Source: a virus
DNA length: 27,957 bases
IMG/VR virus record: IMGVR_UViG_3300037010_002203
Location: 1-27,957 of that record
Reading direction: 5' to 3' (one strand)
Part shown: piece after piece, positions 7,547 through 27,957 of the stretch
Numbering within the stretch: position 1 is the stretch's first letter
How the letters are laid out: each line of letters starts with the position of its first letter
The notes under the pieces: model-generated
What the model was told of the DNA's origin: nothing
The model's database searches: none
The model's input: only the letters and a program-made list of their open reading frames with translations
Made by a program: the position numbers and the translations under genes

Positions 7547-7577
7547 TTGACCCAGGGTGAATCCACTGGTGTATAAT
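7547..7577 (+). promoter_or_regulatory. Promoter TTGACC-N19-TATAAT (duplicated -10)
   Basis: TTGACC (7547-7552) and a consensus TATAAT (7572-7577) are spaced 19 bases apart. The tandem duplication places a second TATAAT at 7627-7632 without a matching -35, so the upstream one is the likelier promoter for the 7657 gene. Confidence 0.55.
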
Positions 7578-7680
7578 GGATCACAACTTCAGGACACCAA
7601 GATGATCGCCAGCACCCTGTTCACTGTATAATGGATCACAACTTCAGGACACCAAGATGATCGCCAGCACCCTGTTCACT
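7571..7680 (+). repeat. Exact 55-bp tandem duplication of promoter, RBS and start codon
   Basis: Positions 7571-7625 and 7626-7680 are identical. Each copy contains TATAAT, AGGACACCAAG and the first eight codons of the 7657 gene. The upstream copy starts at ATG 7612 and stops after nine codons (MIASTLFTV) at the TAA inside the second TATAAT. It has the same structural outcome as the 17-bp duplication at gp25. Confidence 0.92.
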
Positions 7681-8103: not shown

Positions 8104-8562
8104 ATGATCATTTTCATCGTGTACTCAGAGGATGGGTCGTATGACGACTACAGCTGCACGAACATTGGCGCGCGATACACCATGGAGGCCGCTGAGACTT
8201 TCATCGAGGAGTTGAAGGCGGCCCAAACCCGTGAGAACGAGCTCTCGAAGAAGGCAGCTGAGCTCTTCAGCCAAGCCTTCACCGAAGCGCAGCCGCAGTG
8301 GGAGGCCCTGCCCGAGGGCAAGAAAAAGAAGAACCACCCCGAGCTGTATGCGCAGCAGAAGGTTCAGGCCGAAAATGACCGCCGCCGACAAGAATACGAA
8401 CCGAAGCACAAGGCCTGGTACGCTGAAGCACTCCTTACCTATCGCGCCTGCATGATCGAGGCCGGATACACACCTGAAGAGGCGATGGCGTGCACGTACT
8501 GGCGCTGGCACGCCTGCACCAGCGACTCAACCTTCAGCATCGAAGAACTGGAACTCCTGTGA
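8104..8562 (+). CDS. Phage accessory protein with charged coiled region, 152 residues
   Basis: The ATG at 8104 is chosen because AGGA lies eight bases upstream and the protein-like sequence (MIIFIVYSEDGSYDDYSC) begins there; an upstream in-frame GTG would add an unnatural segment. A short beta N-terminus is followed by a long charged helical region (residues 24-105, many Glu/Lys/Gln) and a C-terminal part with MIEAGYTPEEAMACTYWRWH. A TTGCAT-N16-GACAAT pair near 8033-8060 could be its promoter. The function is unknown. Confidence 0.55.
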   Translation: MIIFIVYSEDGSYDDYSCTNIGARYTMEAAETFIEELKAAQTRENELSKKAAELFSQAFTEAQPQWEALPEGKKKKNHPELYAQQKVQAENDRRRQEYEPKHKAWYAEALLTYRACMIEAGYTPEEAMACTYWRWHACTSDSTFSIEELELL

Positions 8563-8681
8563 ACTCCACCCAATCGGCACCTTCTTGATGAAGACCTCCG
8601 GCAAGAAACAGTGCGGGATCTCGACAACGTTTCAGAGGTCATTAGGTAGTTAAAACCACTGCCCGGTTCACCAGGAACGCA

Positions 8682-8721
8682 CGAGGGACCCTAGGGTCCC
8701 TCGACTGTTATGCTCTGCACC
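8682..8721. repeat. 40-bp convergent-junction element, copy A (22-bp palindrome plus 18-bp tail)
   Basis: Positions 8682-8703 are a perfect 22-bp palindrome that folds as a 9-bp stem (CGAGGGACC) with a CTAG loop. It is followed by ACTGTTATGCTCTGCACC (8704-8721). All 40 bases recur exactly at 27769-27808. It sits between the ends of convergent genes (plus gene ending 8562, minus gene ending 8753). Just after it, two CACCGGTC repeats (8738-8755) can form another short hairpin. No T-run is present on either side. Confidence 0.85.
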
Positions 8722-8752: not shown

Positions 8753-9865
8753 TCACGCTCGCCAATTCTTGTTCCGACTGCCCTTGCTTCCGGCACGAGT
8801 CCATGGCTCATGCGCTGGAACCGTGTCGGGCACGGTCGGGCACGTTGCCCCGTCGGCACTCGGGCCATTCAGATGGATGTTTGAGCCCGTCTGAATCAGG
8901 TCGTCAGCGGCCAGGATGTTGAGGCCGGCGGTGGACTCAATGTTCACACCCTTCCCGGAGAGGTGCGTGCTCTCGCAGCCGGCCATGAGCAAGGACTTCC
9001 CAGCCTGGATGTTCACGCCCTCACCAGCCTGGATGTTTACACTCTTCACGGCACTGAGATTGATGCTGCCGCCGCTTGAGAGACTGAAACTATCGGCTGC
9101 GTACGCATGAATCCGACCATCCTGATCGAGCTCAATCCATGATGCCCCGGCGGCCGTCGACACGTAGATCCGCTCGTTCGCATCGTCCAAGATGACTTGG
9201 TGACCTGCAGCGGTCTTCAACCGAAGGCGCCCCGTCGCCGGGTTGTCTTGCATGATGATCGAGTGCCGGCCGGGGGTGGTGAGCACGTAGCTCTGCGAGT
9301 CGTACTGCGCAACTCCGGCATCCTTCGGCTGCACCAGGTCCGCCTGGTATCCTTCAGCACCATCCTTGTGCGTCTTGTCCTGGGCCACCGCTCGCTCGTA
9401 CGCGCCACGGGTCAAGGCCTCAGAGGCAGTGAGCTTTCCTTGGAACTGCGCATTCAGGCTCGCGTTCTGTGGCTCGATGGGCTCGTATGTGTCGCTGAGC
9501 GGCGCTGGGCCGACGTCACTGCGATTGCGGCCAACTGGCAGCGAACGATTCCCGTGATCACGGAAGTACGAGCCAAGGTACACACGGCGGTTCGAGTCGT
9601 TGTACAGGAAACCGACGATGCAAAGCGCCCCAGCTTTTGGCACTGCCCAGAACCCGTACGACACGAGTCCAGATGTGACCGCGCCACCTGGCCCGGCGGG
9701 GTAATCACGGGTCTGCCCAGCGAATGGGGTCACGTACGTTGCCCATGGTAGGGTCTCAATGTCGTACAGCTCGCCATCTTGTGATGGCACCCAGATCTTG
9801 ACGCGCCCCATTTGCTGAGGGTCACTGGTGTCGACGACGACACCTTCCATCAGGCCTTGAATCAT
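8753..9865 (-). CDS. Baseplate central spike protein, gp5-like without lysozyme domain
   Basis: A 370-residue protein. Residues 1-100 form the gp5/VgrG-type OB fold (GVVVDTSDPQQMGRVKIWVP, later YGFWAVPKAGALCIVGFLYND and RRVYLGSYF). A flexible linker follows, and from about 195 onward there is a beta-helix stem with repeated strands (SIIMQDNPATGRLRLKTAAG, VNIQAGEGVNIQAG). The ending VPAHEPWTR is typical. It would be the membrane-piercing spike under the hub. T4 gp5 has 575 residues and an internal lysozyme domain; none is seen here. Its ATG overlaps the hub gene stop by four bases. It is the last gene of the operon. Confidence 0.88.
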   Translation of the reverse strand: MIQGLMEGVVVDTSDPQQMGRVKIWVPSQDGELYDIETLPWATYVTPFAGQTRDYPAGPGGAVTSGLVSYGFWAVPKAGALCIVGFLYNDSNRRVYLGSYFRDHGNRSLPVGRNRSDVGPAPLSDTYEPIEPQNASLNAQFQGKLTASEALTRGAYERAVAQDKTHKDGAEGYQADLVQPKDAGVAQYDSQSYVLTTPGRHSIIMQDNPATGRLRLKTAAGHQVILDDANERIYVSTAAGASWIELDQDGRIHAYAADSFSLSSGGSINLSAVKSVNIQAGEGVNIQAGKSLLMAGCESTHLSGKGVNIESTAGLNILAADDLIQTGSNIHLNGPSADGATCPTVPDTVPAHEPWTRAGSKGSRNKNWRA

Positions 9866-23492: not shown

Positions 23493-23918
23493 ATGGAATC
23501 ACTGTGGCAGCAGTTCCTTGGAGTGCGGGCTGAAATTGAAGGCCGCGTCTCAGAACCTGAGGCTACGGCTGATCTGCGGGAAGTGCGGAAACACCGCCCC
23601 GCTGACGTGGCCTCGCAGAATCTTTCGCAAGCTGCCGATAACTTCGAGGTGAATCGGCGCATCACGTTCTACAACGGCTTCACCGGCCAATACATCCTCG
23701 TGATCGAGGGTCTGTGCAGCAAGGGTAACGACGACACCGACAAGAAGGTCACGTTCACCTGCAAGGTCGGGCCGAACGCCTACAAGAAGCACTTCCTCGG
23801 GGTATCCGACAACGTGACGTACTTCGTGGAGCAGATCGACGCGGCGCCAGCCAGCACCTACCGCTATCGCGTAACGTTCAACCCGTCCGCGCTGGTGCCC
23901 AACACCACGATGCAGTGA
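23493..23918 (+). CDS. Phage protein with FYNGFTGQYILVIEG motif, 141 residues
   Basis: Start three bases after the upstream stop, no clear Shine-Dalgarno. Residues 1-50 are helical and charged. Residues 51-141 form a beta-rich domain: FEVNRRITFYNGFTGQYILV, KKVTFTCKVGPNAYKKHFLG, VSDNVTYFVEQIDAAP and TYRYRVTFNPSALVPN. I recognise this type from phage conserved hypothetical proteins ('RxxxFYNxxxGxxxLxIEGxCSI ... KHxLGLSDNVTYFVEQL'). Function unknown. Confidence 0.65.
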   Translation: MESLWQQFLGVRAEIEGRVSEPEATADLREVRKHRPADVASQNLSQAADNFEVNRRITFYNGFTGQYILVIEGLCSKGNDDTDKKVTFTCKVGPNAYKKHFLGVSDNVTYFVEQIDAAPASTYRYRVTFNPSALVPNTTMQ

Positions 23919-26259: not shown

Positions 26260-26494
26260 ACACGAACGTCGCTCCCTGTACGAGGGCGACACCCCATTCG
26301 TGCTGTCTCTTCGAGCCGCCGAGTCGCTCGACATCCTGAACGTGCTCCGTGTCCCTGAAGCGACCGTGAAGCGCATCATCGCGCTCGTCACTGATGGCGA
26401 CAACAGCGTGCCCATGGCCATGTGGCGCACCGTGATCAAGAAGGAATATGACGCGGCCGTACAAGCTCAGTCTCCGGCAGCCGCTGCCGCCTGA
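26237..26494 (+). CDS. Small phage protein, 85 residues
   Basis: GAGGAA five bases before ATG, within the end of the previous gene. Sequence MQLSPTVEHERRSLYEGDTP followed by helices ESLDILNVLRVPEATVKRII and MAMWRTVIKKEYDAAVQAQ, ending in polyalanine. 'VPEATVKRIIALV' could be a small helix-turn-helix, but the evidence is thin. It overlaps the 416-residue gene by 47 bases. Confidence 0.55.
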   Translation: MQLSPTVEHERRSLYEGDTPFVLSLRAAESLDILNVLRVPEATVKRIIALVTDGDNSVPMAMWRTVIKKEYDAAVQAQSPAAAAA

Positions 26495-27698
26495 TCACCC
26501 GCTGCATTGGGCGCGCTTTTGGCCCAACAAGCAGCGGCTGCATCGCGGGCGGATCGAGGCGAGGCAGGACCTCGTGCTCTGGCTCGCGAATCTCTATCAC
26601 GGGGCTATCCGCTGCGGGAAACCATTTGGCTTCTGCACCATTGAGCTTCGGCTCATGGACCTCCGTGATTGGGTGCGCGACTACCGCCCAGCGCTCGATC
26701 ATTTCTTCGTGACGAAGCAGCTTGGGTACTTTGTAGACGAGGACACGACGACGCTCACGATCCTTGAGCCACGTCGTCTTCCGCCCGAAGAACTTGAGAG
26801 TGTAGATGAGGTCGCTGACGCGCTTCAGTACACCCCACCGCGCCGCCCCGAGAACTGCGTGATTTCGAAGGTGTTGCTTCGAAGCGGGCTGAATCGCCAG
26901 GAGCTCGTGCAACGGCTGCTCACTAGTGGTCGCCCAGAGCTCGTACCGCAACTGAACTGGTTGCTGAAGCAGCCAAGTGAACTGAACTTCCACTTCTCCC
27001 CCAGTGGGAAGCTCCAACAGCGTGACACAAGTGTCTGGCCAATCCCCGCGATTGAGACCTGGCCAGGTTGGTTGCGCGAAGAGCTCTTCGGCCCTGGCAT
27101 CGATCTTGATTCGGCGTACATCCAGTTCCTGTTGCATTCCTTAAGGAAGGTCTTCAAGGACCGCCCGCAACTTCTGCAAATCCTGTTTCCAGATCTCTTG
27201 CGGCTCTTGCACGACAAGGAAGCCTTCCGTAAGGAGCTCTGTGAGCAAGTGCTGCAACGCCCGTACAATGACCGGTACCGCTCGCTCATCAAGCAGGTGA
27301 TCATGAGCCTGGCGAATGGCTCAAGGATCTCGCCGACGCTTCTCACCTCTGGCACTGGGTTTTCACTCACGGTCGAGTTGATCGTTGAGGCGGCGCCTGA
27401 AGCATCTGTCTCTGACCTTACTGCGATCGGTGAGCGGCTGAAGCTGATTGGTGACCAGTTCGCCTCAGCCAAGAAGTACGTGTGCCTCGAGCTCCAGAAG
27501 CACGCACCAAATCGGGCGAACATGAAGGCCGTGTTCAGCTCGTATTTTTCCTGGGAGAGGGCTGCGAGGTACGCGCTCTGGGAGGAGATCGAGCGGCACG
27601 GAATCATGGTTCACGACGGAATTGACGGAGTGCCGCAGAAGCACCTTGATCGACTGCCAGAGCTCATTGAGCGACTTGGGCTTCTATTGACTGCGTGA
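26448..27698 (+). CDS. 416-residue protein with polymerase-palm-like motif order
   Basis: AAGGAAT directly before ATG. No family is recognised with certainty. Three spaced motifs recall small phage/plasmid polymerase-palm proteins: GIDLDSAYIQFLLHSL at 217-232 (aspartates 219 and 221, motif A-like), YRSLIKQVIMSLANGSRIS at 277-295 (Lys282, motif B-like), and SWERAARYALWEEI plus GIMVHDGID at 368-393 (Glu370, His389, Asp390, motif C-like). The N-terminal 200 residues (FGFCTIELRLMDLRDWVRDY and others) look like a separate helical domain. A DNA polymerase/primase-like role is a hypothesis from motif order only; it could equally be an unrelated phage protein. It ends the accessory block before the 40-bp element. 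Confidence 0.6.
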   Translation: MTRPYKLSLRQPLPPDHPLHWARFWPNKQRLHRGRIEARQDLVLWLANLYHGAIRCGKPFGFCTIELRLMDLRDWVRDYRPALDHFFVTKQLGYFVDEDTTTLTILEPRRLPPEELESVDEVADALQYTPPRRPENCVISKVLLRSGLNRQELVQRLLTSGRPELVPQLNWLLKQPSELNFHFSPSGKLQQRDTSVWPIPAIETWPGWLREELFGPGIDLDSAYIQFLLHSLRKVFKDRPQLLQILFPDLLRLLHDKEAFRKELCEQVLQRPYNDRYRSLIKQVIMSLANGSRISPTLLTSGTGFSLTVELIVEAAPEASVSDLTAIGERLKLIGDQFASAKKYVCLELQKHAPNRANMKAVFSSYFSWERAARYALWEEIERHGIMVHDGIDGVPQKHLDRLPELIERLGLLLTA

Positions 27699-27768
27699 GG
27701 CGGCGAGTTTAGAGGCATTAGGTGACAGATAGCGGTTCCATGTAGCCGCACGCGACACCAGAAACCAC

Positions 27769-27808
27769 CGAGGGACCCTAGGGTCCCTCGACTGTTATGC
27801 TCTGCACC
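27769..27808. repeat. 40-bp convergent-junction element, copy B
   Basis: Identical over 40 bases to 8682-8721: a 22-bp perfect palindrome (27769-27790) and the 18-bp tail (27791-27808). It again lies between convergent gene ends (plus gene ending 27698, minus gene ending 27845). Here it is also enclosed by a 10-bp inverted repeat, GCGACACCAG (27752-27761) and CTGGTGTCGC (27828-27837), so a larger cruciform can form. Confidence 0.85.
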
Positions 27809-27844
27809 AGTGAACTTTCGGTGTAGCCTGGTGTCGCTAGGTCA

Positions 27845-27957
27845 TCAAGAACGATACCGGGGCGGCGGGCTTGAAGTACCTGTCTGACCCCCAGACGTAC
27901 CACCCTCGGCACTTTTGACCTCGGCGAATTGCGATCGACCAACGATCAGTTCAATCT
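27845..27957 (-). CDS. C-terminal end of a minus-strand gene (cut by window edge)
   Basis: On the minus strand one frame is open from the edge to TGA at 27847-27845 and reads IELIVGRSQFAEVKSAEGGT, then a Gly/Thr/Ser/Pro-rich end SSPPPRYRS. The other two frames stop at once. The low-complexity tail resembles the disordered ends of the structural proteins at 12362. It supports a convergent arrangement around the 40-bp element. Product unknown. Confidence 0.45.
   Translation of the reverse strand, partial: IELIVGRSQFAEVKSAEGGTSGGQTGTSSPPPRYRS

Follow-up and report, generated by a model that had tools for sequence, protein, structure and literature searches.

Why would a phage carry the same 40-bp sequence, letter for letter, at two places where its genes run head-on into each other? 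The question arose from IMGVR_UViG_3300037010_002203, a virus record of 27,957 nt that was analysed here over its whole length (positions 1–27,957) and is referred to below as the window. Based on the genes that it encodes, including a late sigma factor, a gp46/47-like recombination nuclease and baseplate genes, the window is T4-like.

Two identical copies between converging genes

The 40-mer CGAGGGACCCTAGGGTCCCTCGACTGTTATGCTCTGCACC occupies positions 8682–8721 and 27769–27808, and the two copies agree in every letter, which confirms the exact repeat described in the initial annotation. Their similarity extends over 53 bp at 92% identity (8669–8721 and 27756–27808). Besides a 55-bp tandem duplication at 7570–7679, this is the sole long exact repeat in the window. 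The tandem duplication, which is likewise exact (TGTATAATGG...), lies across the start of the gene at 7657 and includes a −10-like TATAAT. Both copies of the 40-mer contain a perfect 22-bp palindrome, with a different tail on either side. The genes and sequence features around the two copies are:

8104–8562, plus strand: gene left of copy 1, 152 aa, no family found
8669–8681, minus strand: copy 1, tail A (minus strand TGCGTTCCTGGTG), read after the hairpin by a minus-strand transcript
8682–8703, no strand: copy 1, perfect 22-bp palindrome with a 9-bp stem (CGAGGGACC/GGTCCCTCG) and loop CTAG
8704–8721, plus strand: copy 1, tail B (ACTGTTATGCTCTGCACC), read after the hairpin by a plus-strand transcript
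8753–9865, minus strand: gene right of copy 1, 370 aa, baseplate hub/tail lysozyme-like
26448–27698, plus strand: gene left of copy 2, 416 aa as listed, 347 aa from a later start
27752–27761, no strand: copy 2, 10-bp inverted repeat enclosing the hairpin from outside, left arm GCGACACCAG
27756–27768, minus strand: copy 2, tail A (minus strand GTGGTTTCTGGTG)
27769–27790, no strand: copy 2, the same 22-bp palindrome
27791–27808, plus strand: copy 2, tail B, identical to tail B of copy 1
27828–27837, no strand: copy 2, 10-bp inverted repeat enclosing the hairpin from outside, right arm CTGGTGTCGC
27837–27957, minus strand: C-terminal end of the gene right of copy 2, readable over about 22 aa, with the frame interrupted close to where the contig stops

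The proposal that both copies lie between converging genes was borne out, although the minus-strand gene at copy 2 had at first been assumed and is now supported by about 22 residues. The contig ends 150 bp beyond this copy. Past it, the minus strand reads ...GWYVWGSDRYFKPAAPVSFLMT followed by a stop codon (27837–27839), which resembles, by eye, the C-terminus ...TYDWTSDTYARPSSIVTFKF and stop of the baseplate-hub gene found at the same place in relatives. There, the baseplate-hub gene faces the same plus-strand gene as at copy 2 (26448–27698), which is conserved among the relatives and for which no family was found. Because of this resemblance, we consider the copy 2 junction to be convergent too, on shorter evidence than at copy 1.

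A family of hairpins with two unlike tails

Exact matches to the palindrome were found in 11 further viral contigs, three of which are 331–343 kb long. One of the 11 (G004) contains the palindrome with no recognisable tails A or B and was left out of the lineage. Overall, the element family occurs in uncultured jumbo phages of the T4-like type, on at least 12 contigs, the near-complete ones measuring 331–343 kb, and the lineage members that were compared share approximately 55–80% amino-acid identity with one another. The inner 20-mer of the palindrome had no match among 84,980 bacterial and archaeal genomes, the element was unmatched in the isolated phages searched at the DNA level, and the comparison with Rfam gave no match at the element. 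By protein, the nearest isolated phages are XacN1, Stenotrophomonas phage RAS14 and the PA5oct group, with an identity of only about 30–34%, and the GGGACC–GGTCCC hairpin is absent from XacN1, RAS14 and Paride. Elsewhere in the window, the protein encoded at 23493–23918 strongly matches the Pfam family PF25682 (Phage_VG64, a name taken from a mycobacteriophage protein).

The oriented family consensus reads CACCAGRAAY-N3-CGAGGGACC-CTAG-GGTCCCTCG-N3-GTTATGCTCTRCACC. Every hairpin ascertained via tail A (outward GTTTCTGGTG) bears tail B (outward GTTATGCTCTGCACC or a variant of it) on the opposite side, and among these hairpins there was not a single A–A or B–B pairing. The inner stem GGGACC/GGTCCC is almost invariant, with GGGCCC/GGGCCC in one member. 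The base of the stem covaries, with G–C, C–G, A–U and U–A pairs all being seen there, and doubly changed cells numbered 28 versus 14 in shuffles (0/500 shuffles as high). CTAG is the most frequent loop; TTCG, GCAA, AGCT and others were also found. In one of the near-complete genomes (G005), the hairpin is often enclosed by a further pair of inverted repeats (CGGCGACACGA...TCGTGTCGCCG), with a three-way junction as the predicted fold, and copy 2 of the window shows a 10-bp version of this arrangement. Long arms of this type occur in only about a fifth of the members (approximately 8/38), ruling out the outer inverted repeat as a universal feature.

Most copies lie at the ends of converging gene blocks

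Placement was analysed in three near-complete genomes (G002, G005 and G010), in which genes were called by codon usage. Convergent junctions account for 3.9% (50/1,280) in these genomes, whereas 14 of the 19 family members are located at one (binomial p ~2e-16), a very large contrast even if individual junctions may be wrong with our home-made gene caller. Family members were picked manually on the basis of their tail scores, and the 14 include one that straddles the two ends of the G002 contig. The other 5/19 lie at tandem junctions, and none of the 19 was found inside a gene or at divergent starts.

Across all contigs, 22 occurrences of the CTAG form could be classified, and 19 of them are convergent, with both stop codons usually 16–130 nt away; of the other three, one (in G007) turned tandem via a rearrangement. 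CTAG loops were also found at two other convergent junctions on different stems (GAGCTCC-CTAG-GGAGCTC and GAGGTCC-CTAG-GGACCTC). The A–hairpin–B arrangement with its self-complementary loop offers a sequence signature for head-on operon ends in a large lineage of uncultured jumbo phages. A polarity of A and B tracking late versus early genes was considered and dropped, as the gene functions on either side follow no rule.

A probable bidirectional terminator

Judged from sequence and position, the element is probably (at a rough probability of 0.75) a bidirectional intrinsic transcription terminator common to two head-on gene blocks. A two-way terminator was among the roles initially suggested, and it is supported by the convergent placement, the lack of genic or divergent copies, the covariation in the stem and the reuse of the stem with T-tracts. 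We infer both that transcripts end at the element and that the mechanism is intrinsic. RNA polymerase coming from either direction would transcribe one perfect palindrome, and the RNA would fold into the same hairpin for both directions, with a G+C-rich stem of 9 bp and CUAG as its self-complementary loop. Beyond the hairpin, the polymerase would enter a tail enriched in U, namely B (NNUGUUAUGCUCU) on one strand and A (NNNGUUUCUGGUG) on the other. Transcription would halt in this tail, and neither block would make RNA antisense to its opponent. The core hairpin has a predicted energy of −16.8 kcal/mol, is rich in G+C and is encoded identically on both strands. At convergent sites, most loops are self-complementary, so that either strand gives an identical RNA.

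At tandem operon ends of the same genomes, the same stem occurs with TTCG, GCAA and GTAA loops about 20 nt past the stop codons; the loop mostly reads in sense, and a T-rich tail comes next. Of 23 GAGGGACC-TTCG-GGTCCCTC hairpins in other viral contigs, 18 show at least six T among the eight bases that follow on the UUCG strand, and one shows such a T-run on the opposite strand. Versions with a UUCG or GNRA loop and a clear T-tract are ordinary one-way terminators elsewhere.

According to the initial annotation, the element lacks a U-tract. This is correct in that the window copies show no run of T; their first eight bases past the stem hold three to four T on every strand. Across the family, however, both sides are enriched in T, with 3.8 and 4.3 T in the first eight bases after the stem compared to 2.1 in intergenic sequence (p < 1e-11 each), and the U-tract is interrupted, beginning about 3 nt past the stem. 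Tails that are T-enriched but unclean would be expected of an intrinsic terminator that works both ways and has to compromise on its U-tract. A terminator consensus scan of the window did not call the element.

Tail similarity is higher within genomes than across shared junctions

The conservation of the inner GGGACC/GGTCCC and of the tail sequences exceeds what an intrinsic terminator requires, and the question is raised why a terminator has two unlike conserved tails that are yet uniform within each genome. Based on a tail table curated by hand, the likeness of tail B is 0.675 within a genome versus 0.585 at the same junction across genomes (p 0.004), and that of tail A is 0.691 versus 0.610 (p 0.02). 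Copies at the same junction in different genomes are not more alike than any others. This pattern leaves two options: recombination homogenises the copies, or the copies track a factor particular to each genome. Either would explain why the two copies in the window are exact despite their differing surroundings.

The second of these options leads to a factor-dependent two-way stop, in which a phage or host protein would act on the tails or the stem, as a roadblock on DNA or on the RNA, the hairpin alone being insufficient. Tails A and B are conserved past the U-tract, invariably one of each, the inner stem varies hardly at all, and tails that are homogeneous within a genome and differ between genomes are what co-evolution with a genome-specific factor predicts. 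Homogenisation through copying gives the same pattern, however, the same stem works elsewhere with plain T-tracts, and there is no known factor, so that we consider this explanation unlikely. Similarly doubtful is its more specific form, in which A–hairpin–B would be a two-way stop for a termination factor either encoded or modified by the phage. Such a factor would recognise both tails and co-evolve with them, resulting in genome-specific tail variants.

Dispersed palindromes, recombination sites and promoters

The REP/BIME and ERIC sequences of enterobacteria are short extragenic palindromes at 3′ ends that form mosaics with other motifs, and the element is similar to them in all of these respects. 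It could then be a REP/BIME-like dispersed palindrome that spreads by copying and mainly shields mRNA 3′ ends from exonucleases. The strictly extragenic and dispersed location at 3′ ends would fit this, as would the mosaics with the repeats R1 and R2 (see below) and the terminal inverted repeats CGGCGACACGA in one genome. Nevertheless, we regard a REP-like nature as improbable, because the REP-associated Y1 transposase (PF01797) is absent from the six genomes searched, whereas control genomes were positive, most copies are located at junctions common to several genomes, and convergent ends are strongly preferred over tandem ones. The same three features distinguish the element from REP, BIME and ERIC as families.

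Even less probable is a DNA recombination site that inverts or rearranges genome segments, which the initial annotation had listed as a recombination or segmentation site. In G006, inverted elements flank both sides of a 28-kb segment (61794–89754; L279 and L280), and the contig of G010, which belongs to the same species, is without exactly this segment. The segment is turned in G007, G009, G011 and L127, and elements are located at the joins in G007 (105085), G009 (11123) and L127 (6172); in G011, the turned segment also has a different left neighbour. Furthermore, several contigs stop at or near an element. However, the turned genomes form a single clade (support 1.0), so that one old inversion event suffices, and the two flanking copies have just some 75 bp in common (89% identity). 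Assemblies can be expected to break at palindromes, as in the 336-kb contig of G002, both ends of which fall within the palindrome. One ancestral inversion has its ends at two elements, but breakpoints would in any case be expected to fall between operons. Phase-variable inversion was rejected, as the inverted arrangement is restricted to one clade.

That the tail is a promoter yielding antisense transcripts is hardly credible: the proposed extended −10 box (TGTTATGCT in the window) is lost in sister genomes bearing the same element (GTTTAGCTAAACACC, GATTGGTTCTATGTCC), the −35 position falls inside the G+C-rich hairpin, and a promoter scan found no −35/−10 pair at 16–18 nt at copy 1.

Comparison with known terminators

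Two-way stops at convergent phage operons are already known; unusual here are the conserved lopsided flanks and the likeness within genomes. T4 and its relatives have bidirectional rho-independent terminators downstream of uvsW.1 (PMC1524935). The probable terminator described here shares with them the single hairpin between converging transcripts and a position that is conserved across related genomes. In contrast to the uvsW.1 terminators, several junctions per genome reuse a nearly identical sequence, whose flanks A and B are fixed and dissimilar and whose U-tract is interrupted. For the Pseudomonas putida phage pf16, the available text of the report places a bidirectional terminator wherever the coding strand switches and, within that text, describes no shared conserved flanks, self-complementary CTAG loop or homogenisation (PMC5587285). 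The viral UUCG-loop terminators (GAGGGACC-TTCG-GGTCCCTC-T7) have the same stem sequence, but they are one-way, with an asymmetric loop and a T-run on a single side. In the open-access papers searched, we found no description of asymmetric conserved tails or of their homogeneity within a genome. If the element works as proposed, it would offer a compact two-way insulator for synthetic constructs.

Other dispersed repeats

In addition to the hairpin family, further repeats were observed in the intergenic regions of these genomes. One of them adjoins copy 2 of the window:

27710–27738, plus strand: R1 repeat (AGAGGCATTAGGTGACAGATAGCGGTTCC), beside copy 2 on its A side, present several times in each relative

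R1 has the form GGCATTAG-N-TGACAGATAG(T)GCGGGTTCA, is intergenic and occurs in approximately 6–11 copies per genome (G005 L235–L252, G010, G002). The position N is apparently occupied by one base per genome, which differs between genomes. R1 is often located directly past stop codons or terminators and faintly recalls tRNA D-/T-arm sequence. A function as a promoter was rejected, since its orientation relative to the next gene is inconsistent. A second repeat, R2 (CGGCGACACGAGGCGACGCCGG), is present in about 12 copies in G005, all of them intergenic and frequently accompanied by R1 and a terminator hairpin (for example at 51533, 101815, 202593, 234570 and 306097). At 75500–75600 of G005, corresponding to an element junction in G006, R1 is followed by a different long palindrome (GGTGCGGTGTTGAACTCAACACCGCACC). 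Finally, the viral contigs L090, L091, L102 and L105 contain an unrelated repeated palindrome, CTACTACGTAGGAGAGGGACC-NNNN-GGTCCCTC...CCTACGT. The palindrome CTACTACGTAGGAGAGGGACC-NNNN-GGTCCCTC occurs in many contigs with nearly identical flanks and looks like a separate dispersed element.
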